DNA from: Solwaraspora sp. WMMD1047
Lineage (GTDB): Bacteria; Actinomycetota; Actinomycetes; Mycobacteriales; Micromonosporaceae
Direction: 5' to 3'
Assembly (NCBI RefSeq): GCF_029626155.1
Contig: NZ_JARUBL010000001.1
Coordinates: forward strand, 2,356,001 to 2,420,000
DNA length: 64,000 nt
Each line of letters begins with the position of its first letter. Within the stretch, counting starts at the first letter, position 1. The notes under the pieces were generated by a model that saw only the letters and a list, made by a program, of their open reading frames with translations, made no database searches and had not been told where the DNA came from. Positions 52,249-64,000 of this stretch are shown here, in pieces. A program made the position numbers and the translations under genes.

Positions 52249-54933
52249 TCAGTGCGGGGTCCGGACCGCCGGCGCCACCGGCGGGACGTCGGCCGGTGGC
52301 TGCGTCGTCCGGGCCGGCTCGGCGGTGGGTCGGTCCGCCAGGTCGGCGCCGAGGCGGGCGATGATGATCAGCGGGAGCCAGCCGACGTAGCCGGCCAGCG
52401 TGGTCGGTAGGTGCGACGCCTCCAGCCAGGACACCTGCGTGAACGCGACCAGGAACAGGCCGGCGGCGGGCACCCCGGCGGCCAGCAGCGCCATCGACCG
52501 GCGCCAGACCAGGTAGAGCAGTACGCCGAACAGGACGGTGGCGAGCAGACCGCCGACCACCAGGAACTGCACCAGCACGTTGTGCGCGTGGCTGAACTGC
52601 CCGCCGAGCGCCTCGGCCAGGTCGGGCTGGTTGTCGAAGTAGCCCGGCCCGAACCCGAGGAGCGGAGCCTGCGCCCAGCGGTCGAGCAGCGCCGCCCAGA
52701 TCCGGCCCCGCTCGCTGAAGGCGGCCGGGTCGCGGGTCAGCAGCGGGGCCGCGACCGTCAGCACCAGCCCGGCCACCACCGGCACCGCCACCGCCCACCG
52801 CGCCAGCCAGGTCGTCCCGCCGGCTGCCCCGGTGCTCTCCGCCGTCCCGCCCAGGTCGGCGGCCCGGCTATGCGGCAGCCGGCGGGTGAGGGCCGGCAGC
52901 CAGCGGATGATTCCGTAGCTGACCAGCACCGCCACGATCGCGAGTTGGCTGGTCCGGGAGCCGGTCCAGGAGGCCGCGAAGAGCACCACCAGCACCCCGG
53001 CCCGCCGCAGCAGGGCGTTTCCGACGCAGAACAGGAAAGGCAGGGACAGCGCCAGCGTCAACCCGAGCACGTTGGAGTGCGGGTACGGCCCGGCCAGCAG
53101 GCCGCCGAGGAAGCCGCTCTTGGCGCCGGCGGCCGAGCCGGACAGCAGGCCGAGGTCCGGGCGGACCAGGGCGAGCAGGATCGACCCGAGGGCGGTACCG
53201 GCGCCCAGCACGCCGATGGTGGCCAGCACCCGCGGCGCGGGGCGCTGCAGCCAGACGGCGACGGCGGCCAGCGGCAGCGCGGCCGAGACCGGCCCCGGCA
53301 GCTCCCCGTTGACCAGCCCGGACAGCTCGATCGCGACGAGCGGCGCGAGCAGGACGGCGAGCCAGCCCAGCCGGTGCGGTGGTCGGTTGCGCAGCAGACC
53401 GTGCACCGCCAGCGCGGCCGCCAGCCCGATGAACGCCAGGCTGAGCAGGTCACCGATGGCGTCCGCGACGGCGGGTGCGCTGTTCTCCCGCGAGTTGAAC
53501 TCCGGCCGTCCGCTGTCGAACAACTGCACCAGTTGCGGCACCACCAGCCGCGACCAGGCCAGCATGATCAGCGCGGCGACGCCGATGGTGCCGAACCGGC
53601 CGCCGGGGCGGACCGCGCCGGAGGCCGGGCGGGGGCGGGGCGGCGCGAGGCGCTGGATCAGCGCGGCGGCGTGGTCGATGAACAACCGGACATCCTCCCG
53701 GTACGGGATGGTCAACATGCGCAGCGACGGTGTCTCCGGCGTCCGGCTGACGGCCGCGGCGGCGACCAGCACCGAGACGCCGTAGCCACCGAGGCTGGCG
53801 ACGGCGGCGCCGACCGCGCCCCAGGGTGCGAGGAGCAGCAGCAGGGCGACCCCGGCGACGGAGCCGGCGACCAGCGCCGCCGACGACCGGCTCGCCCGGC
53901 CGTGGGCGAGCAGCACCGCCGAATAGATGATCATGCAGGTGTAGAGGGTGGTGGCGAGGCAGAGAATGATCGTCGGCAGTACCGCCGGGGCGAACGGTCG
54001 ACCGAAGACCCACGGCACGGCCACCGTCGCGATCGCGGCCAGCAGACCGCAGGCGACGACCGAGGCGAGCACCGCGAGCCGGGCCACCCGGGTCGCCCGG
54101 CGCGGGTCGTCGCTGCCGGGGCGGCCCATCAGCACGGTCCGGGCGGCGGTCGCGATCACCATCGGGATCTCGGCCACGCTCACCGCGACCGCGTAGTAGC
54201 CGAGCTGCTGCGCGCCGATCACCGGCAGCCCGATGATCTGGTCGAGCCGGGCGCTGGAGATCGCCGCCAGCACCCCGGGCAGACAGGCCAGCGAGTACGC
54301 GGCCAGCGACCGGATCGGAACGCCGGCGGAGGGCTGCGCCGGCTCCGGTTCCGTGGTCGCGGACCGCAGCCGGGCCAGCCCGGCGACGAGTCCGACGGTG
54401 ACCGACGCCAGGAAGAGCAGACCGGCCCAGAAGGCGCTCAGCTCGAACGCCAGGCAGGCGAAGACCACGAGCGCCGTCCGGGCCAGCGCGGGCAGCACCT
54501 TGACCAGGTTCACCCCGCGGATGTCGGCGGCGCCGGTGAGCGCCCCGATCAGCAGGTTGGCGAGGATGTGCAGCGGCGCCAGGCAGGCCAGCAGCAGGAA
54601 CTGCCGGTAGTCGGTGCCGCCGCCGGGAAAGACGAAGAGGCCGAGCAGCGCGAGCAGCGCGACGCCGAGCAGGCCGAGTGGCACCGCCGAGACCAGGCTG
54701 ACCAGGGCGGCGCCGCGCCGGGTGAGGCGGTTCTCGCGCAGGTGGAAGCTGAGCGCGTCCTGCAGCCCGTAGGTGCCGATCCAGCCGCAGACGACGATGG
54801 GCAGGGTCAGCGCGGCGTAGAGGCCCCGCCCGTCCGGCCCCAGTTCGCGGGAGAGGAACGGGCTGACCAGCAGCCCGCTGATCGGGATCAGCAGGTTGGC
54901 GGACGAGGCGGAGAGCAGCTTGCGGGTCGACAT
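52249..54933 (-). CDS. fused Wzx-like flippase and Wzy/WaaL-like polymerase
   Basis: An 894-residue membrane protein. Residues 1 to about 420 form a polysaccharide flippase of the MATE/PST type (LLIPISGLLVSPFLSRELGPDGRGLY at the start, 12 or so segments). After a linker (about 430-460), residues 465-894 form an O-antigen ligase/polymerase domain. It has SWTGSRTSQLAIVAVLVSYGI, GFGPGYFDNQPDLAEALGGQ and the family SHAHN motif at 781-785. These two steps are normally carried by separate proteins. It is the last gene of the glycosyltransferase operon, overlapping the gene before it (TGATG). It probably flips lipid-linked repeat units and joins them outside. Confidence 0.82.
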   Translation of the reverse strand: MSTRKLLSASSANLLIPISGLLVSPFLSRELGPDGRGLYAALTLPIVVCGWIGTYGLQDALSFHLRENRLTRRGAALVSLVSAVPLGLLGVALLALLGLFVFPGGGTDYRQFLLLACLAPLHILANLLIGALTGAADIRGVNLVKVLPALARTALVVFACLAFELSAFWAGLLFLASVTVGLVAGLARLRSATTEPEPAQPSAGVPIRSLAAYSLACLPGVLAAISSARLDQIIGLPVIGAQQLGYYAVAVSVAEIPMVIATAARTVLMGRPGSDDPRRATRVARLAVLASVVACGLLAAIATVAVPWVFGRPFAPAVLPTIILCLATTLYTCMIIYSAVLLAHGRASRSSAALVAGSVAGVALLLLLAPWGAVGAAVASLGGYGVSVLVAAAAVSRTPETPSLRMLTIPYREDVRLFIDHAAALIQRLAPPRPRPASGAVRPGGRFGTIGVAALIMLAWSRLVVPQLVQLFDSGRPEFNSRENSAPAVADAIGDLLSLAFIGLAAALAVHGLLRNRPPHRLGWLAVLLAPLVAIELSGLVNGELPGPVSAALPLAAVAVWLQRPAPRVLATIGVLGAGTALGSILLALVRPDLGLLSGSAAGAKSGFLGGLLAGPYPHSNVLGLTLALSLPFLFCVGNALLRRAGVLVVLFAASWTGSRTSQLAIVAVLVSYGIIRWLPALTRRLPHSRAADLGGTAESTGAAGGTTWLARWAVAVPVVAGLVLTVAAPLLTRDPAAFSERGRIWAALLDRWAQAPLLGFGPGYFDNQPDLAEALGGQFSHAHNVLVQFLVVGGLLATVLFGVLLYLVWRRSMALLAAGVPAAGLFLVAFTQVSWLEASHLPTTLAGYVGWLPLIIIARLGADLADRPTAEPARTTQPPADVPPVAPAVRTPH

Positions 54934-56111
54934 CAGCGCCCGTCCCCGACGAGGTGGTCGGCCAGCGACCCGGTGAGCCGCTGCGCGAAGCGTTCCTCGG
55001 AGAACTCCCGGCGGACCAGCTCCAGCGCGTCGTCGGCCATCGCCGCCAGCGCCGGCGGCGAACTGGCCAGGATCTCGTCGGCCAGTTCGGCCGGGGTCCC
55101 GGCGAGCCGGACCGCCGGGGTGGACGGCACGCCCTCGGCGCCGACCGGGGTGCTGAACACCGGCACCGAGTGGGCCAGCAGGGTCAGCGTCTTGAGCTTG
55201 ACGCCGGCACCGCTCCAGACCGGCACCACGCCGGCCCGCGCGGTGGCCAGCACCGGCCGCAGGTCGTCGACGTAGCCGAGCACCCGGACGCCGTCGTGAC
55301 CGGCCAGCTCCCGCTCGACCGCGCCCGTCAGCCCGGATCCGACCAGCGACAGCGTGAACCCGGCCGCGCGCAGGCGCGGCCAGCCCTGCGCCAGGAACCG
55401 CCGCAACCCGTGCAGATTCGGCTGGTACGCGAAGCTGCCCAACCAGACCAGCCGGTCCGGCTCCGGCCGGGGCAGGTGCCCGGTCGGCACGGGTACGCAG
55501 CTCGGCAGCGTGCAGTCGGCCCGCCGGCCGTGGCTGCGCAGCAGCCGGTCCGCCTCCTCGGTGCTGGTCACCGAGACCGTCGCGCAGTGCGCCAACGCCG
55601 CCGCCTCGAACCGGGTCGAGATTTGCGCGAGGTATCGGGCGCGCAGCCGGTGCGGCGGGCCGGCGGCCTCCGCCAGGTCCTGCCGGCTGCTGGCGGCCAG
55701 CACGTTCGCCTTGTCCCAGTGCCAGCGCAGCCGGGTTCCCCGCAGGTAGGCGCCGGCGGCCTCCCCGATGGCGATGCCGTGGCCGGTCCGGTCGCGCAGC
55801 TCGTCGTGCAGCGACCCGCTGTAGCGGGTCCGGACCCACGGCGGCAGCCCACGCAGCAGCGACTCCGGGTAGCGCCCGGCCGGCCCCAGCCGGTCCAGCC
55901 GGTAGCCGGTGGCGACGTGGTCGCGTACCTCCACTCCCGGCAGCAGCCCCCGCAGCTGCCGGACCTGGTCGTCGGTGGTGGTCGGCCGGCGGACCACCAG
56001 CAGGGTGTACGGGCGGACCCGGGCGAGCGCCCGGAGCATCATCAGCACCCGTACCGGGTCTCCCCGGTCCGCCGGCAGCGGAAAGTAGGACACCACGACG
56101 GTCAGCTCCAT
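54933..56111 (-). CDS. glycosyltransferase (GT-B fold)
   Basis: A 392-residue glycosyltransferase. The N-terminal domain starts VVVSYFPLPADRGDPVRVLMML. RLVWLGSFAYQPNLHGLRRFL begins the C-terminal domain, and VPVWSGAGVKLKTLTLLAHSVPVFSTPVGAEG is the donor-binding region. It resembles glycosyltransferases of the Stp1/StpA type, often annotated family 4-like. The start overlaps the end of the gene before it by 10 nt, and its stop overlaps the flippase start. It should add one sugar to the lipid-linked repeat unit; donor and acceptor are unknown. Confidence 0.85.
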   Translation of the reverse strand: MELTVVVSYFPLPADRGDPVRVLMMLRALARVRPYTLLVVRRPTTTDDQVRQLRGLLPGVEVRDHVATGYRLDRLGPAGRYPESLLRGLPPWVRTRYSGSLHDELRDRTGHGIAIGEAAGAYLRGTRLRWHWDKANVLAASSRQDLAEAAGPPHRLRARYLAQISTRFEAAALAHCATVSVTSTEEADRLLRSHGRRADCTLPSCVPVPTGHLPRPEPDRLVWLGSFAYQPNLHGLRRFLAQGWPRLRAAGFTLSLVGSGLTGAVERELAGHDGVRVLGYVDDLRPVLATARAGVVPVWSGAGVKLKTLTLLAHSVPVFSTPVGAEGVPSTPAVRLAGTPAELADEILASSPPALAAMADDALELVRREFSEERFAQRLTGSLADHLVGDGR

Positions 56112-57439
56112 CCGCCCGGCCCTCCCCGCCCCGGACCGGCCGCGCCGCCGGCAGGTGGTGCAGCGGTGCCGGTCGGTGGTGCAGCGGCGGTGCCGGTCGG
56201 TGGTGCAGCGGCGGTGCCGGTCGGTGGTGCAGCGGCGGTGCCGGTCGGTGGTGCAGCGGTGGTGCTCGCCGGTGGTCCGGCCAGGTCGCGCCAGACCGCG
56301 AGCAGGCGGTCGGCCTGCCGGGCCGGGGTGAACTCGGTCCGGATCCGCTCGGCGAGCGCCGTGGCGCGACCGGCCGCCCGCTGCGGGTCGGCGAGCACCT
56401 GCCCGATCGCGTCGGCAAGCGCGGCCGGGTCCGCCGGCGGCACCAGCCACCCGCTGGCCGGGTCGACCAGTTCGGGGATGCCGGAGACCGGGGTGGTGAC
56501 CACCGGCACCCCGCGCCCGCCCGCCTCCATCAGGAAGACCGGGATGCCGTCGAGGTCACCGTCGGGTGCCAGCTGGCAGGGGAGCACCGCGACGTCCGCG
56601 TCGGCCAGCGCGGCGGTGGCCACCTGGTGCGGCACCGCGCCGTGCAGGGTCACCACCCGGTCGAGCCCGCGGGCGGCGACCTGCCGGCGCAGATCGGCCC
56701 GCAGCGGCCCGTCGCCGTACACGTCGTAGCGGACCTGCTGGCCGGCGGCGACCAGGTCGGCGACCGCGTCGATCGCGGTGCCGACGCCCTTCTTGGCCAC
56801 CAGCCGGGCCACCGTGACCAGCTTCCGTACCCCGGTGCCGGATCGGGGCGGGCGGCCGGTCGCGGTGACCGCGCCGTCGAACGCGGCCCGGACCACGGTG
56901 TGCGGGACCCGGGCCATCGACACGCCCCGGACGGTGAGCTGGCGGACGGTGGCACCGGAGATGACGAAGAGGTGGCCGAGCCGGCGCAGCCGCCGGTCCA
57001 GGGACGTCCGGTCGCGCTCCAGCAGCAGGTCGGCGGCGTGCGCCATCGCCGTCGCCGGCCGGCCGAGCAGGCGGCCCACCAGTACCGTCACGGCGGTCGG
57101 CAGGTTCACGAAGTGGGTGTGCACGACGTCCGGCCCGAATCGCGCCACCCGGGGCGCGACCCGGAGCGCGTACGCCGCCGCCAGCCACGCCCGCGGGCCG
57201 TACCGGAGGCCGAGGGTCCGGACCAGCGCGACGGTGCGCACCGGGTGCCGCAGCAGCGCCCGGGCGACCCGGCCGGCCTCGCCGATCCGCCCGCCCCCGT
57301 CCCCGCCGGTGACGAAGACCTCGACGGTGGCGCCGGCGGCGCGGACCGCCCGGATCTCGGCCTCGATGAACGTCTCGCTGTAGCTCGGCGGCCGCAGCAG
57401 CAGGTACGCGATCCGGAGCCCGCCGGCCGGCCCGCTCAC
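56102..57439 (-). CDS. glycosyltransferase, family 4, with repeat tail
   Basis: A 445-residue GT4 enzyme. LRIAYLLLRPPSYSETFIEAEIRAV opens the acceptor domain, VVHTHFVNLPTAV follows, and KLVTVARLVAKKGVGTAIDAV begins the donor domain. FLMEAGGRGVPVVTTPVSGIPELV is the E-x7-E type region. The last about 45 residues are Ala/Pro/Thr/Gly-rich with four PPTGTAA units coded by a 24-bp minisatellite. The GTG start overlaps the stop of the upstream gene (GTGA). It acts in the cytoplasm on the growing lipid-linked glycan. Confidence 0.88.
   Translation of the reverse strand: MSGPAGGLRIAYLLLRPPSYSETFIEAEIRAVRAAGATVEVFVTGGDGGGRIGEAGRVARALLRHPVRTVALVRTLGLRYGPRAWLAAAYALRVAPRVARFGPDVVHTHFVNLPTAVTVLVGRLLGRPATAMAHAADLLLERDRTSLDRRLRRLGHLFVISGATVRQLTVRGVSMARVPHTVVRAAFDGAVTATGRPPRSGTGVRKLVTVARLVAKKGVGTAIDAVADLVAAGQQVRYDVYGDGPLRADLRRQVAARGLDRVVTLHGAVPHQVATAALADADVAVLPCQLAPDGDLDGIPVFLMEAGGRGVPVVTTPVSGIPELVDPASGWLVPPADPAALADAIGQVLADPQRAAGRATALAERIRTEFTPARQADRLLAVWRDLAGPPASTTAAPPTGTAAAPPTGTAAAPPTGTAAAPPTGTAAPPAGGAAGPGRGGPGGWS
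56154..56260 (-). repeat. 24-bp coding minisatellite
   Basis: Three perfect 24-bp units (56175-56246) flanked by a 21-bp copy (56154) and a partial copy (56247). They encode PPTGTAAA-type repeats at the C-terminus of the glycosyltransferase. Confidence 0.85.
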
Positions 57440-58803
57440 CGGGCCCGCCGCGCGCTCCGGACCCGCCCGGTCCCGGCCAGCCCGGTCCCGGCCCGCCCGG
57501 TCGAGCGGTGCGCCCGCCGTACCGTGTCGAAGAACGCGGCGTGCCGGTCCACACAGTCCTGGTCGGTCTGCACCGCGGTGCCGGCCGCTCCCGCGGCCAG
57601 CTTCTCCCGCAGCTCCCGGGAGTCCACCACGGTGCGCAGCGCGGCGCCCAGCGCGGCCGGGTCGTTCGCCGGCACGAGCAGGCCGTTCTCCCCGGAGCGT
57701 AGCCACTCGCCCGGCCCGCCGCCCTCGGTGGCGACCACCGGCAGGCCGTGCGCCAGACCCTGCAGCACGGTCTGACCCAGCGGCTCGGGCCGGGTCGAGG
57801 CGTGCACCAGCACGTCGATCCGGTCCAGGAAGCCGGCCACGTCGTCGACGTGGCCGAGGAAGGTCACCCGGTCGGCGATGCCGAGCCGGGTGGCCTGGGC
57901 GCGCAGCTCGGCCGCGTAGCCCTCCTCGCCGAACAGCGCCGCGCCGGCCAGGTAGCCGGGCACGCCGGTGTCGGCCAGCGACCGGGCGAACGCGTCCAGG
58001 AAGACGTGCTGTCCCTTCCACCGCTGCAGCCGCCCGAGCATCCCGATCGCCCGTACCGTCGGGCCGACCCGCGACCGGGTGGTCCGGTGGGTGACCCCGA
58101 GCGGGCTCTGCACGACCGCCCGGGGCACCTCGGCACCGAGCCAGGATTCGGCCGAGCGCAGCGTGGCGGCCGAGTTGGCCAGCACCCCGTCGACCCGGGG
58201 CAGCGCGATCCGGCGCAGCGCCAGCAGGCCGAACCGTCCGAGGCTCTCGCCGTCGACCAGGTCGCGCAGGTGCACCACCAGCGGGTGCCGGCGGTCCGGT
58301 GTGGCCAGCGCGCAGATGATCGCGGCGGCGGCGGTGTTGGCGTGCAGCAGGTCGGCCGCGCGGAACAGCGGGCTGCGCCGCAGCCGGCGGGCCGCGCGCG
58401 TCAGCGCGGCCAGGTACCGGGCGGCCAGTCGCGGGTCCAGGCCGCGGGTGCCCCCGCCGGGCAGCACCGGCAGCACCTGATCCACCGGTACGCCGCGGCG
58501 GTCCAGCCCGGCGAAGACTCCGCTCACCCGGTCGCCCGCAGTGCGTTGCGAGTCGTCGCCGCCGATGTCGCCGGGCGGGTCGCCGATCACGCCAGACGGG
58601 TTGCCGGCGGCGCCGCCGGGCCGGTCGGGGTGCGGCGTGGCGGCCGGCTGGGCGGTGCAGATCGAGGCGTGCCAGCCGGGCCGGTCGGTGGTCAGCAGCC
58701 GCCGCAGGGCCAGCTCGGCGCCGCCGCCCTCGCTGGTATGGCTGACGTGCAGCACCCGGATCGCGGCCGGTCCGTCCGGGTCGGGCCGGCTACCGGAGGG
58801 CAC
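57436..58803 (-). CDS. glycosyltransferase, family 4
   Basis: A 455-residue GT4 enzyme. IRVLHVSHTSEGGGAELALRRLL is the N-terminal nucleotide-fold entrance. An Asp/Gly/Pro-rich insertion of about 40 residues follows near residues 55-95. VRAIGMLGRLQRWKGQHVFLDAFA begins the second domain, and ASTRPEPLGQTVLQGLAHGLPVVATEGGGPGEW is the donor site with the E-P-L-G motif. It overlaps the gene before it by 14 nt and the one after it by GTGA. Donor and acceptor cannot be inferred. Confidence 0.88.
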   Translation of the reverse strand: MPSGSRPDPDGPAAIRVLHVSHTSEGGGAELALRRLLTTDRPGWHASICTAQPAATPHPDRPGGAAGNPSGVIGDPPGDIGGDDSQRTAGDRVSGVFAGLDRRGVPVDQVLPVLPGGGTRGLDPRLAARYLAALTRAARRLRRSPLFRAADLLHANTAAAAIICALATPDRRHPLVVHLRDLVDGESLGRFGLLALRRIALPRVDGVLANSAATLRSAESWLGAEVPRAVVQSPLGVTHRTTRSRVGPTVRAIGMLGRLQRWKGQHVFLDAFARSLADTGVPGYLAGAALFGEEGYAAELRAQATRLGIADRVTFLGHVDDVAGFLDRIDVLVHASTRPEPLGQTVLQGLAHGLPVVATEGGGPGEWLRSGENGLLVPANDPAALGAALRTVVDSRELREKLAAGAAGTAVQTDQDCVDRHAAFFDTVRRAHRSTGRAGTGLAGTGRVRSARRAR

Positions 58804-59908
58804 GTTCGACCCAGTCGGTCATCCGGTCCGCGAACCGGGCCGGGGAGAAGGTGGCCGCGTGGGCCGGCAGCCGGTCGGTCGACAACTCGTCGAGCCGGCG
58901 CAGCGGCTTGACGAAGGCGGCCGGCTCCAGCGTCTCCACCAGGTGGCCGGTCTCGCCGTCGAGGACGGTCTCGACCAGGCCGCCCCGGCGCAGCCCGACC
59001 ACCGGCGTACCGCAGGCCTGCGCCTCGACCGGGATCATGCCGAAGTCCTCGTGCACCGGGAAGAGCAGGGCGCGCGCCCCCCAGTAGAGCCGGCGCAGCC
59101 GGTCGCGGTCCGGCCGGACCTCGAAGCGCACCGGTACGCCGGCCCGGTCGGCGGCCCGCCGCAGATTGGCCTCCTCGGGGCCGGCGCCGGCCACCACCAG
59201 CGGCAGGCCGGCCGCGTCCGCGATCGCGATGATCAGGTCGAAGTTCTTGTACGGGATCCACCGGCCGACGCCGAGCAGGTAGTCGCGCGGCTGGTCGCGG
59301 TCGGCGGCCGGCGCGGCGGCGAAGTAGTCCACGTCGACCGGCGGGTTGATCACCTCGGCGTCCCGGCGCCAGTAGTGGTTGATCCGGTCCCGCACCTCCC
59401 GGGAGTTCGCCGCGTACGCGTGCACGTGCCGGCTGAGCCGCACGTCGGCGGCGCGCAGCAGCCGGCGGGGCGCGGCGAGCAGGGGATTCGCGCCCCGCCC
59501 GTCGAAGGCCGGGCTCCACAGGTAGCGGGCGGGGGCGTGTACGTAACTGAGGTAGCGGGTCCGGTCCGGCGATCCCATCCGGACGGTGTGCGCGAAGGCG
59601 TGGCTGGAGGAGATGACCACGTCGAACCGGTCCCGGCTCAGCGTCCGCCAGACCAGCGGCATCACCGGCAGCGCCGCCGCCTTGCTGTGCCGCAGCGGGG
59701 TGCGGGCCAGCCACGACTCGCGCAGCCGGGGCTCGTCGACGTCGCCGTCCTTCCACAGGACGAAGCGTTCGGCGTGCGGGATCAGGTCGGCGATCTGGCC
59801 GAACACCTGCTCGGAGCCGCCGGCGGCGGCGTACCACTCGTGCACCACCGCGACCGAGCGGCCGGCGAGCGGGGCCGGCCGGGTGGGCCGGCTCACCTGA
59901 CCTGTCAC
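58790..59908 (-). CDS. glycosyltransferase, family 4 (first gene of the operon)
   Basis: A 372-residue GT4 enzyme. VAVVHEWYAAAGGSEQVFGQIADLIP and SYVHAPARYLWSPAFDG are typical of mannosyltransferase-like members. The donor domain has LGVGRWIPYKNFDLIIAIADAA and FPVHEDFGMIPVEAQACGTPVVGLR. The GTG at 59908 is preceded by GGGGAG at 6 nt, which selects it over upstream frame extension. It is the first gene of a run of five overlapping genes ending in the flippase-polymerase, divergent from the DUF1800 gene. Confidence 0.87.
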   Translation of the reverse strand: MTGQVSRPTRPAPLAGRSVAVVHEWYAAAGGSEQVFGQIADLIPHAERFVLWKDGDVDEPRLRESWLARTPLRHSKAAALPVMPLVWRTLSRDRFDVVISSSHAFAHTVRMGSPDRTRYLSYVHAPARYLWSPAFDGRGANPLLAAPRRLLRAADVRLSRHVHAYAANSREVRDRINHYWRRDAEVINPPVDVDYFAAAPAADRDQPRDYLLGVGRWIPYKNFDLIIAIADAAGLPLVVAGAGPEEANLRRAADRAGVPVRFEVRPDRDRLRRLYWGARALLFPVHEDFGMIPVEAQACGTPVVGLRRGGLVETVLDGETGHLVETLEPAAFVKPLRRLDELSTDRLPAHAATFSPARFADRMTDWVERALR

Positions 59909-60044
59909 CGGTACTCCCCGATATCCTCCGATGGCGGCCCGAGGCCGTGTCGGCGGCGATGGTACAGCAGCCCGCGTCGCCGGGTGGGGGCCGGGAATCC
60001 GGCCCGGATTTCTCCACCGTCGATCCTCGCCTATGGTTTTCCTC

Positions 60045-61316
60045 ATGACCGAGGACGTCGCGCTGCTGCTCAGCCGCGCTGGCTTCGGCCCGACGGCGGT
60101 GGAGTTGGCGGCGGCCGGCGCGGCCGGCTATCCGGCGACACTGTCGACTCTGGTGGCACCCTCGGGACCCGACGTGGGGGCGACGAGCGCGCCGATCCCT
60201 CAGCTGGGGCCGGATCCGTACGCCACCCTGCGCAATCCGACCGCGCGGCAGCGGAGCACCGCCGACCGGATCCGCCGCGAGCAGACGTACGAGATCACCC
60301 GCTGGTGGCTGGACCGGATGACGGTGGCCAGCCACCAGGCGGTCGAGAAGCTGGTCTTCTTCTGGCACGGGCACTGGGCCACCTCGGTGGTGAAGGTGAA
60401 GAGCCCGCAGCTGATGCTGACCCAGCACCGGACCCTGCGGTCCGACGGCGGCGACGTCGTCCGGCTGGCCCGCGCGATGGTGGTCGACCCGGCGTTGCTG
60501 TACTGGTTGGACGGCCAGCTCAACACCAGGGCGGCCGCCAACGAGAACCTGGGCCGGGAGCTGTTCGAACTGTTCCTGCTGGGTCTCGGCGAGTACGGCG
60601 AGGCCGATGTCCGGGACGCCGGCCGGGCGCTGACCGGCTGGCGGGTGGACCTCGCCCGGCAGCGGTCGGTGTTCGACGCCCGCGCCCACGACGGCGGTTC
60701 GAAGCTGATCCTCGGCACCACCGGCGACTTCGGCGCGGTCGAGCTGGTCGACCTGCTGCTGCGCCAGCCGGCCTGCCCGCGATTCATCGCCGGCCGGCTG
60801 TGGTTCCGGTACGCCTCGGCCACCTCGCCGATGCCCGAGTCCACCCGGGACCGGATGACCGCCGCCTTCCCGGCGCCGCTGGCGATGCTGCGGGCGCTGT
60901 TCGAGGACGACGCCTTCCTCGCCACCCGTGGCACGATGGTGAAACAGCCGGTCGAGTGGCTGGTGGGCGCGATGCGGCAGCTTTCGCTGCGGCCGGCGAA
61001 GATACCGACGGAGACGATGACCCAGATTCTCGACGGGATGAGCGGCCTCGGGCAGCGGCTGTTCGACCCGCCCAGCGTGGGCGGCTGGCCGGCCGGCGCG
61101 ACCTGGCTGACCTCGGCCGCGGCGCAGGTGCGGCTCAGCCTGGCCGGCAAGCTCGCCAGTCAGCTGGTGCCGGAGCGGTTGACCCCCGAGCACGTCGCCC
61201 ACCTGCTCGGCCTGCCCGGCTGGAGCGACCGGACGTACGCGGTGCTGCGCGAGATCCGCAACTCCCGGCTGCTGTTGACGCTCGGTCTGGTCAGCCCGGA
61301 ATACACGGTGACCTGA
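60045..61316 (+). CDS. DUF1800 family protein
   Basis: A 423-residue protein of a widespread family of unknown function. Signatures are LLSRAGFGPTAVEL at the start, VEKLVFFWHGHW, NENLGRELFELFLLGLGEYGEADV, DAGRALTGWRV and FDPPSVGGWPAGATWL. The ATG at 60045 is 7 nt after TATGGT with no ribosome site, so it is probably leaderless. It has no signal peptide. Together with the DUF1501 gene, one nucleotide downstream, it forms a conserved pair. Here the pair lies inside an exopolysaccharide cluster, which suggests a link to glycan export or modification. Confidence 0.85.
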   Translation: MTEDVALLLSRAGFGPTAVELAAAGAAGYPATLSTLVAPSGPDVGATSAPIPQLGPDPYATLRNPTARQRSTADRIRREQTYEITRWWLDRMTVASHQAVEKLVFFWHGHWATSVVKVKSPQLMLTQHRTLRSDGGDVVRLARAMVVDPALLYWLDGQLNTRAAANENLGRELFELFLLGLGEYGEADVRDAGRALTGWRVDLARQRSVFDARAHDGGSKLILGTTGDFGAVELVDLLLRQPACPRFIAGRLWFRYASATSPMPESTRDRMTAAFPAPLAMLRALFEDDAFLATRGTMVKQPVEWLVGAMRQLSLRPAKIPTETMTQILDGMSGLGQRLFDPPSVGGWPAGATWLTSAAAQVRLSLAGKLASQLVPERLTPEHVAHLLGLPGWSDRTYAVLREIRNSRLLLTLGLVSPEYTVT

Positions 61317-61317
61317 G

Positions 61318-62568
61318 ATGGACCTCTACACCAGACGCCGGTTCCTGCTCGCCTCCGGGGTGGCGGCCGGCGGCGCGCTGGCCGCCGGGGCGGGCGCGAT
61401 CGGCCTGGCCGAACTGCTGCGCAGCGCGTCCGGGGAGCCGCCGGCCGGCGACCGGCCGGTGGACACGGTGGTGCTGGTCACCCTCTACGGCGGCAACGAC
61501 GGGCTGAACACCCTGATCCCGTACGCCGACGACGCGTACCACTCGGCGCGGCCGGAGCTGGCGTATCCGCCGGAGCGGGTGCTGCGGTTGGACGACTCGG
61601 TCGGGCTGAACCCGATGTTGCGGGGGCTCAAGCAGCTCTGGGACGGCGGGAAGTTGGCGATCGTCCAGGGGGTCGGCTACCCGCGGCCGGACCGCAGCCA
61701 CTTCCGGTCGATGGACATCTGGCAGACCGCCTCGCCGGCGGAGCCGGTGCCGACCGGCTGGGTCGGTCGGTGGCTGGACGGCACCGCGGCCCCGGTGGAG
61801 GCGGCGGTGAGTTTCGAGCCGGTGCTGCCGCCGCTGCTGGTGGGCAAGAGCCGGGTCGGGGCCTGCGTCAGCTACCGGGGGCTGTCGCTGCCGAACTGGA
61901 TCGACGCCTCGGTGGTGGCGGGGCTGGGCCGGCCGCAGCCGGGGGAGCCGGAGATGTTCGCGCGGGCCGCCGCGGCGTACGCGGATCTGTTGAGCATGAG
62001 CGCGGTGATCGGCGACGCCGAGAACACCCAGCCCAGCAACACCACCGGGCCGGACGTGCCGGCGACCGGCACCGGTGGTGCGAACGCGTTGACCACCCAG
62101 TTGGCGTTGGTGGCGCGCTGTGTCGAGGTGGGGGTGCCGACCCGGGTCTACTCGGTGAGCCTCGGCGGCTTCGACACGCACGCCCAGGAGGTGGTGGCGC
62201 AGGAGGCGCTGCTCGGGCAGCTCGATCAGGCGTTGGCTGGGTTCGCGACCCGGATGGCCGGGTCGACGGCAGGCCGCCGGGTGGCGGTGGTGGTCTACAG
62301 CGAGTTCGGCCGGCGGGTGCGGGCGAACGCGTCGCAGGGCACCGACCACGGCACCGCCGGCCCGGTCTTCGTCCTCGGTGACCGGGTGCTCGGCGGCCTG
62401 TACGGGGAGCATCCGAGCCTGACCGACCTGGACCACGACGACCTGAAGGCGACGACGGACTTCCGCGACGTCTTCGGGACGGTCCTCACCTCGGTGCTGG
62501 GGGTGGAGGCGTCCCGCTACATCGACGACCACGAGCTGCGGTCGCTGCCGCTGTTCGCGACCGCCTGA
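61318..62568 (+). CDS. DUF1501 family protein, Tat-exported
   Basis: A 416-residue protein of the DUF1501 family, related to the alkaline phosphatase/sulfatase fold. A twin-arginine signal (TRRRFLLASGVAAGG) shows export after folding. VVLVTLYGGNDGLNTLIPY is the first family motif, HFRSMDIWQTASP follows, and SVSLGGFDTHAQE and VVYSEFGRRVRANASQGTDHGTAGP provide conserved Asp and His residues that could bind metal. It starts one nucleotide after the DUF1800 stop. The family's role is unknown; a hydrolase or transferase working outside the membrane is plausible. Confidence 0.87.
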   Translation: MDLYTRRRFLLASGVAAGGALAAGAGAIGLAELLRSASGEPPAGDRPVDTVVLVTLYGGNDGLNTLIPYADDAYHSARPELAYPPERVLRLDDSVGLNPMLRGLKQLWDGGKLAIVQGVGYPRPDRSHFRSMDIWQTASPAEPVPTGWVGRWLDGTAAPVEAAVSFEPVLPPLLVGKSRVGACVSYRGLSLPNWIDASVVAGLGRPQPGEPEMFARAAAAYADLLSMSAVIGDAENTQPSNTTGPDVPATGTGGANALTTQLALVARCVEVGVPTRVYSVSLGGFDTHAQEVVAQEALLGQLDQALAGFATRMAGSTAGRRVAVVVYSEFGRRVRANASQGTDHGTAGPVFVLGDRVLGGLYGEHPSLTDLDHDDLKATTDFRDVFGTVLTSVLGVEASRYIDDHELRSLPLFATA

Positions 62569-62584: not shown

Positions 62585-64000
62585 TCAGCGGCCGCCGCCC
62601 CGGAACACCTCGGCGATGGTGCGCAGCAGCACCTTGGCGTCGAGCCAGAGCGACCAGTTCTCGATGTAGTAGTTGTCGAACCGGGCCCGGTCGGAGATCG
62701 GCGTGTCCCCGCGCAGCCCGCTGACCTGCGCCAGCCCGGTCAGCCCCATCGGCACCCGGTGCCGCATCGCGTAGTCGGGGTGTTCGGCGGAGAACTTCTC
62801 CACGAAGTAGGGCCGCTCCGGGCGGGGTCCGACGACTGTCATGTCGCCGCGCAGGATGTTCCACAGCTGGGGGAGTTCGTCGAGTGAGGTGCGGCGCATG
62901 AACCGACCGACCGGCCCGATCCGCTGGTCGTCCGCAATGGACCACCTGGTCTGGGACTCCTGCTCGTCGTGGGGCCGCATGGTGCGGAACTTGATCACCT
63001 TGAACGGTCGGCCGTGCCGGCCGACCCGGTCCTGGTAGAAGAAGATGCCCCGGCCGCCCTCGGCCAGGGTGGCCAGGGCGCAGAGCAGCAGCAGCGGGCT
63101 GAGGACCACCAGCGCGACGGTGGCGAAGACGAGATCCGAACAGCGCTTGACGGCCCAGCGCGGCCCGGAGAGGGCGGTGTGCCGGATCTGCACGACCGGG
63201 ATCGCCCCGATGTGGTCGGGCAGCCCACCCTGCGACCGCGAACCCCACAACCGGGGTACGACGAACAGGTCGCAGCCCACGCAGGCGGGTCGGCGCAGGA
63301 CCTCCATCAGCGCCGGCTCCGGGACCTCCACGTCCGCGATGATCAGGACGTCGCAGTCGACCATCGGAATCGTCGACTCCAGGTCGTCGAGGGTGGCCAA
63401 CAGCGGGACCGGCGGCCCGTCGGTGCGCTGCGGCCCGACCCCGACGTGCCCGACGAAGCGCAGGCCGTACCGGGGATAGCGGCGCAGCAGCCGGGACAGC
63501 TCCACCGCGACCGGTCCGCTGCCCAGGATGATCGCGTTGTGTTCGACCCAGCGGTGCCGGCGGGCGAAGGTGACGGTGGCGCGGGTGACGGCCCGCCCGA
63601 CGATGACCAGCCCGGCGGAGATCGCGACGCTGCGCATGAACCCGGCGCCGTACTCGACGGAGTCGTGCCGCAGGGCCGCGATGATCGAGACGATCGAGGC
63701 GGCGGCCAACAGCCGCCCGCAGAGGCTGGGCAGCTCGTCCAGAATGCTCATGTGCCGCCGGGCCCGGTAGAGCCCGCCGGCCGCGAAGATCGTCACGGTG
63801 AGCGCGGCGGCTACCAGCGTCCCGCGCCAGTAGGTCCGGGTCCAGAGCAGCGGGCCGAGCAGGGCGATCAGGTCGACCGGCGCGGTGAGCATCCAGGCCC
63901 GTAGCTGCCGGGTCCGCCGGGACGTCTCCGAGCCGACGTACGGCAGCACGGTGGTGGTGGCCGTGCTCTCGGCCCGCTCGGGAGCGCGCTGCTGCGGAAT
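62585..64000 (-). CDS. polyprenyl-phosphate sugar-1-phosphate transferase (5' end beyond the window)
   Basis: At least 471 residues; the frame stays open to the window edge, and no ribosome site precedes the first GTG at 63949. Four membrane segments (about residues 20-140 from that GTG) and a CoA-binding-like domain (AIILGSGPVAVELSRLLRR) come before the catalytic part. The catalytic part reads KRCSDLVFATVALVVLSPLLLLCAL, KVIKFRTM, DELPQLWNILRGDMTVVGPRP and GLTGLAQVSGLRGDTPI. This is the WbaP/EpsL-type bacterial sugar transferase. It loads the first sugar phosphate on undecaprenyl phosphate and so starts repeat-unit synthesis for the cluster. It converges on the DUF1501 gene. Confidence 0.92.
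   Translation of the reverse strand: MPQQRAPERAESTATTTVLPYVGSETSRRTRQLRAWMLTAPVDLIALLGPLLWTRTYWRGTLVAAALTVTIFAAGGLYRARRHMSILDELPSLCGRLLAAASIVSIIAALRHDSVEYGAGFMRSVAISAGLVIVGRAVTRATVTFARRHRWVEHNAIILGSGPVAVELSRLLRRYPRYGLRFVGHVGVGPQRTDGPPVPLLATLDDLESTIPMVDCDVLIIADVEVPEPALMEVLRRPACVGCDLFVVPRLWGSRSQGGLPDHIGAIPVVQIRHTALSGPRWAVKRCSDLVFATVALVVLSPLLLLCALATLAEGGRGIFFYQDRVGRHGRPFKVIKFRTMRPHDEQESQTRWSIADDQRIGPVGRFMRRTSLDELPQLWNILRGDMTVVGPRPERPYFVEKFSAEHPDYAMRHRVPMGLTGLAQVSGLRGDTPISDRARFDNYYIENWSLWLDAKVLLRTIAEVFRGGGR

Follow-up and report, generated by a model that had tools for sequence, protein, structure and literature searches.

A predicted flippase fused to a predicted Wzy_C/WaaL-type glycan transferase in a reading frame conserved among Micromonosporaceae

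Introduction

The known Wzx flippases (WzxE; MOP superfamily, PF01943) are free-standing proteins, and so is MagA, the Wzy polymerase of the K1 capsule, a member of PF04932 (Wzy_C) that needs an Arg and a His, R290 and H323, in a periplasmic loop (PMC3485256). In the O-antigen ligase WaaL (GT121; 7TPG), two Arg and one His are reported to hold undecaprenyl pyrophosphate and to activate the acceptor; this Arg-Arg-His set is the signature of O-antigen ligases, and at the position of the His most characterised O-antigen and capsule polymerases of clan GT-C1 carry Asp or Glu instead (PMC10920833). For two decades, genetic evidence has led to proposals of a complex of Wzx, Wzy and Wzz (PMC10030265, citing complementation work). 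The co-polymerase of Rhizobium is regarded as a bridge between the flippase and the polymerase (PMC5748678).

Here we describe a gene of Solwaraspora sp. WMMD1047 in which a flippase domain and a Wzy_C domain share one frame. It lies in a stretch of 64,000 nucleotides, hereafter the window. A preliminary description had proposed this fusion from the sequence, together with a direct coupling of the flipping and the joining of repeat units.

The fusion gene and its start

The gene is a single minus-strand open frame of 894 residues that begins with the ATG at 54933 and closes with a stop codon whose last base is 52249 (Table 1). It has zero internal stops, and its third-position GC remains between 0.92 and 0.98 per block of 60 codons over the whole gene, linker included; the uninterrupted frame that had been described is therefore confirmed. 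In 11 species, each sequenced independently, the same fusion is encoded in a single frame. These observations all stand against an assembly or sequencing error that masks a stop or a start between two genes, which the preliminary description had named as a way in which it could be wrong. No point in support of such an artefact was found, its probability is practically nil, and the fusion is real.

The ATG overlaps the TGA of the upstream glycosyltransferase gene (TGATG). This overlap is also present in 10 fused relatives and in a free-standing flippase gene of Dactylosporangium sucinum (locus L039, described below), and the start is therefore well supported. Two other gene models were rejected. 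An in-frame upstream TTG would yield 1389 residues, with a frame that runs over the glycosyltransferase gene and disregards the conserved overlap. For a separate Wzy translated from an internal start, the only ATG common to most of the fused genes is codon 406, within the flippase tail; it is absent in two fused species, and the equivalent residue is present in the free-standing L039 flippase.

Table 1. Features of the fusion gene and its neighbours, in window coordinates.
Feature	Position	Strand	Basis
Flippase-Wzy_C fusion gene, 894 aa	52249..54933	-	one frame in 11 species; conserved TGATG start
N-half, residues 1-400, predicted MOP/Wzx flippase domain	53734..54933	-	WzxE 9g9n, Z 27.8; Pfam Polysacc_synt
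Linker, residues about 401-448	53590..53733	-	low identity, variable length and sequence
C-half, residues 442-867, predicted Wzy_C/WaaL-fold domain	52333..53610	-	AlphaFold2; WaaL 7tpg match; Pfam Wzy_C
R660 (WaaL Arg191)	52954..52956	-	HMMER alignment to 7tpg; invariant in fused proteins
R742 (WaaL Arg265)	52708..52710	-	HMMER alignment to 7tpg; invariant in two alignments
SHAHN motif, residues 781-785, with H784 (WaaL His313)	52579..52593	-	HMMER alignment; H784 invariant in two alignments
GT4-type glycosyltransferase, overlaps fusion start (TGATG)	54933..56111	-	Pfam Glyco_trans_1_4; conserved synteny
GT4-type glycosyltransferase	56102..57439	-	Pfam; synteny
GT4-type glycosyltransferase	57436..58755	-	Pfam; synteny
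GT4-type glycosyltransferase	58790..59908	-	Pfam; synteny
Initiating polyprenyl-phosphate sugar-1-phosphate transferase (WcaJ/EPS_sugtrans type)	62585..63949	-	Pfam Bac_transf; NCBIfam TIGR03025, 385.7 bits, above cut-off
DUF1800 protein, conserved neighbour	60033..61316	+	Pfam; synteny
DUF1501 protein, conserved neighbour	61318..62568	+	Pfam; synteny
Conserved neighbour in convergent orientation, about 525 aa, with a single apparent transmembrane segment	50644..52221	+	44-52% identical in fused loci where called whole

The two domains and the linker

When the N-half of the full-length AlphaFold2 model (13 rows) was compared with solved structures, the best match was WzxE (9g9n; Z 27.8, rmsd 4.1, 381 residues aligned), followed by MATE and MurJ. 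Pfam Polysacc_synt is found at residues 4-268 of the window protein with 26.1 bits, slightly below its cut-off of 28.2; it is above the cut-off in the orthologues L031, L034 and L035 and in L039, and several orthologues, L031 and L034 among them, pass the cut-offs of both domains (Polysacc_synt 29.4 and Wzy_C 47.8 bits in the former, 37.3 and 55.5 in the latter). On the model, residues 1-400 carry the MOP/Wzx flippase fold, as expected from the Wzx-like transporter first described. The protein is like the Wzx flippases in this fold and in a gene that adjoins glycosyltransferase genes, but it bears a second membrane enzyme domain at its C-terminus.

The C-half, folded alone (AlphaFold2, 19 sequences), gave a model with pLDDT 87.8 and pTM 0.89, whose sole strong match among solved structures is WaaL (7tpg; Z 20.4, 323 residues aligned); the related SEDS proteins FtsW/RodA come next, at Z 10-11. 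Pfam Wzy_C matches residues 646-802 with 46 bits (cut-off 31.7), and NCBIfam gives a weak match to the O-OTase TfpM. Compared with PDB sequences, a profile of the C-half has as its best matches the oligosaccharyltransferase 9rmk (2e-13) and WaaL 7tpg (2.2e-13), and the profile of the whole fusion has no match there. The HMMER alignment to 7tpg places R660, R742 and H784 opposite the Arg, Arg and His of WaaL, and none of the three residues varies among the nine fused proteins that were aligned first. The modelled WaaL/Wzy_C fold of residues 442-867, the Pfam match and the SHAHN motif bear out the Wzy/WaaL-like domain of the preliminary description. This half is like WaaL and the PF04932 proteins in its fold and in the equivalents of the three WaaL residues, and like MagA in its family and in an Arg and His pair; it differs from all of them in being fused behind a flippase.

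From D414 to W460, across the linker, the fused proteins have 38-78 residues. Mean pairwise identity is 71% in the N-half, 42% in the linker and 55-60% in the C-half, so the halves evolve at differing rates. The helix count of MOP flippases is even, and the linker is therefore expected in the cytosol. The full-length structure prediction that had been proposed as a check gave a usable N-half, with its match to WzxE, but a poor C-half, and with pLDDT 65 the model is too weak for the packing of the halves.

A long, variable and poorly conserved linker is compatible with a fusion devoid of mechanistic meaning, in which two neighbouring genes merged by the loss of a stop and were kept by drift, given a 1:1 need for their products, with no hand-over between the domains. 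The distribution of the fusion, presented next, bears on this explanation.

Fused and split loci in the family

Nine of the 201 family genomes surveyed, the window's included, have both halves in one frame (six genus codes), and two further fused loci belong to the named Micromonospora species M. qiuiae and M. endophytica. This gives 11 Micromonosporaceae species, with six genus codes and 59-68% identity; the search for the same domain pair in the family, also proposed beforehand, thus returned a conserved fusion.

Syntenic loci with a free-standing orthologous flippase were found in Dactylosporangium sucinum (L039, 439 aa) and Planosporangium thailandense (L040). Downstream of the flippase, L039 has a gene for a beta-helix, pectinase-like secreted protein (L039:7814-9193, minus strand) and then a Wzy_C protein, and in L040 a Wzc-type co-polymerase comes first, with a Wzy_C protein after it. 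The two Wzy_C proteins are similar to each other (25%, 2e-23) and not alignable to the fused C-half, being of another subfamily; thus, the split loci cannot be described simply as the fused gene divided in two. Separate genes in close relatives, which the preliminary description had regarded as evidence against its claim, do exist in these two species. They leave the fusion standing, because only the flippases are orthologous to the fused protein and 11 species keep the fusion.

We built a flippase-only tree and a six-gene tree. In the latter, the split pair lies on one side of a branch and the 11 fused loci on the other (support 78/81), which is suggestive, though not firm, evidence for one origin of the fused loci. 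Since the root is unplaced, the branch is compatible with either fusion or fission.

Regarding the merger by drift, relatives that manage with separate proteins speak for it. However, one frame has persisted, at about 60% identity, in 11 species that span six genus codes, and since the free-standing Wzy_C proteins of the relatives are of another subfamily, a simple merger of those present genes is unsupported. The recurrence of the fusion elsewhere in the phylum, described below, also counts against it, and on the whole we hold this explanation to be rather unlikely.

Fusions and free-standing relatives beyond the family

The whole protein was compared with 394 genomes of its class, almost all of them from other families, and this returned half-matches only and no fusion. 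Each was either a flippase or a free-standing Wzy_C relative and lay in an open frame of ordinary length; the plasmid collection gave no match to the fusion. The free-standing relatives of the C-half align along most of its length, and in three of them (L065, L071 and L078; family f2 of the same order) the gene is directly downstream of a Wzc-type gene.

In a survey of 246 genomes of the phylum, 160 Wzy_C places were listed and the seven frames of at least 780 residues were read; among the places listed, one of these seven has a flippase domain, and flippase fusions among the other matches are possible. This frame (L118:1871-4900, minus strand, genome G663) has 1010 residues and comes from another family of the phylum, outside the window's class. 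Polysacc_synt (97 bits, residues 38-308) is followed by Wzy_C (85 bits, residues 754-905), both above the Pfam cut-offs and in the domain order of the window protein. However, the BLASTP match between the two proteins covers only 78 residues (31%, E 0.004), the flippase profile finds no match, and the gene neighbours, an adjoining Wzc-like AAA_31 gene and two acetyltransferases, differ from those of the fusion locus. Because of this short alignment and these other neighbours, L118 is best read as an independent flippase-Wzy_C fusion.

Other architectures appeared in the phylum. An open frame of 896 codons (L120:2428-5115, minus strand, genome G660) has Pectate_lyase_4 and Wzy_C matches and is a possible lyase-Wzy_C fusion. 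In other Actinomycetota, two Wzy_C proteins (L122:1082-3469 and L123:1041-3425, both minus strand) carry long C-terminal TPR arrays, and many of the Wzy_C frames of 660-740 residues in the survey may be of this type.

The polysaccharide locus

The fusion is the last gene of a minus-strand run that starts with the sugar-phosphate transferase and continues with the four GT4-type glycosyltransferases, so that an initiating enzyme and glycosyltransferases, as parts of a Wzx/Wzy-type locus, are present in the cluster. This gene order recurs in all the fused relatives with minor local differences. No second flippase or Wzy_C match was seen at the fusion locus; four other Wzy_C proteins are encoded in the genome, at other coordinates. 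A search of the 11 fused loci and of the 64-kb window found no Wzz/Wzc co-polymerase gene in any of them. Wzz protein matches are present elsewhere in the genome, and a distant co-polymerase could serve the locus.

The DUF1800 and DUF1501 genes are on the opposite strand, where they separate the sugar-phosphate transferase gene from that of the first glycosyltransferase; the pair diverges from the glycan operon and has been conserved together with it. Its occurrence at a polysaccharide locus has a parallel, since DUF1800/DUF1501 pairs are also reported next to chitin synthase genes of bacteria (PMC5122149). The convergent neighbour at the other end has no Pfam match; by eye, its N-terminus resembles a degenerate protein-kinase N-lobe and is followed by a proline-rich stretch, the transmembrane segment and an outer domain.

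Discussion

We consider it probable that the protein is a single-chain flippase and en-bloc glycan transferase whose C-half joins the flipped units, with polymerisation more likely than ligation. Judging by family membership, the sugar-phosphate transferase would start an oligosaccharide linked to undecaprenyl pyrophosphate, and the four GT4 enzymes would extend it. The N-half would then flip this presumed substrate across the membrane. At the outer face, R660 and R742 of the C-half may grip the pyrophosphate while H784 activates the acceptor, and the unit would be joined to the growing chain or, with less likelihood, to a final acceptor. The linker, on the cytosolic side, would keep the two membrane domains together in a 1:1 ratio, and flipped units might be passed straight to the enzyme.

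Whether the C-half acts as a polymerase or as a ligase is a question on which the evidence is divided. In an alternative to the reading above, the C-half would be similar to an O-antigen ligase or an O-oligosaccharyltransferase and would transfer the flipped oligosaccharide en bloc, either as a single unit or after polymerisation elsewhere, to a protein, wall or lipid acceptor. The WaaL-like Arg-Arg-His residues favour this role, together with the 9rmk and 7tpg matches, the WaaL fold, the weak TfpM match and the lack of a co-polymerase at the fused loci. Lipid A-core acceptors, as in the case of WaaL, are not known from the host family. The His does not decide the matter, because the polymerase MagA depends equally on its Arg and His (PMC3485256). 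A ligase would also leave the cluster without a polymerase, and the three free-standing relatives of the C-half adjoin Wzc co-polymerase genes. We therefore regard a ligase as rather improbable; cluster content and these relatives favour polymerisation, and the C-half is likely a polymerase.

As for the coupling of flipping and joining, a physical hand-over may follow from the fusion, which, by analogy with the Rhizobium system, would replace the bridge formed by the co-polymerase with a covalent one. The gene-fusion, or "Rosetta stone", argument supports a functional link, because L118 is a second, sequence-unrelated union of Polysacc_synt and Wzy_C, also beside a Wzc-like gene. While the 11 fused loci are devoid of Wzz/Wzc, the split L040 locus has a co-polymerase between flippase and Wzy. 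A stronger proposal is that of a self-contained flip-and-join machine, with direct channelling, with no need of a co-polymerase, and with the fusion itself setting chain length or single-unit transfer; we deem it unlikely.

Both domains belong to known families, and what appears to be new is a fusion of them kept across genera and apparently found twice independently. We found no description of Wzx-Wzy fusions in the open-access literature, and subscription papers may hold one. As long as the proteins are separate, a Wzx-Wzy complex is difficult to demonstrate, and a conserved natural fusion offers a fixed 1:1 complex to express, image and cut, with two natural split relatives as a ready comparison. 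In this group of soil actinobacteria, with one conserved protein where two are usual, the fusion makes the long-suspected physical link of flipping and joining testable.
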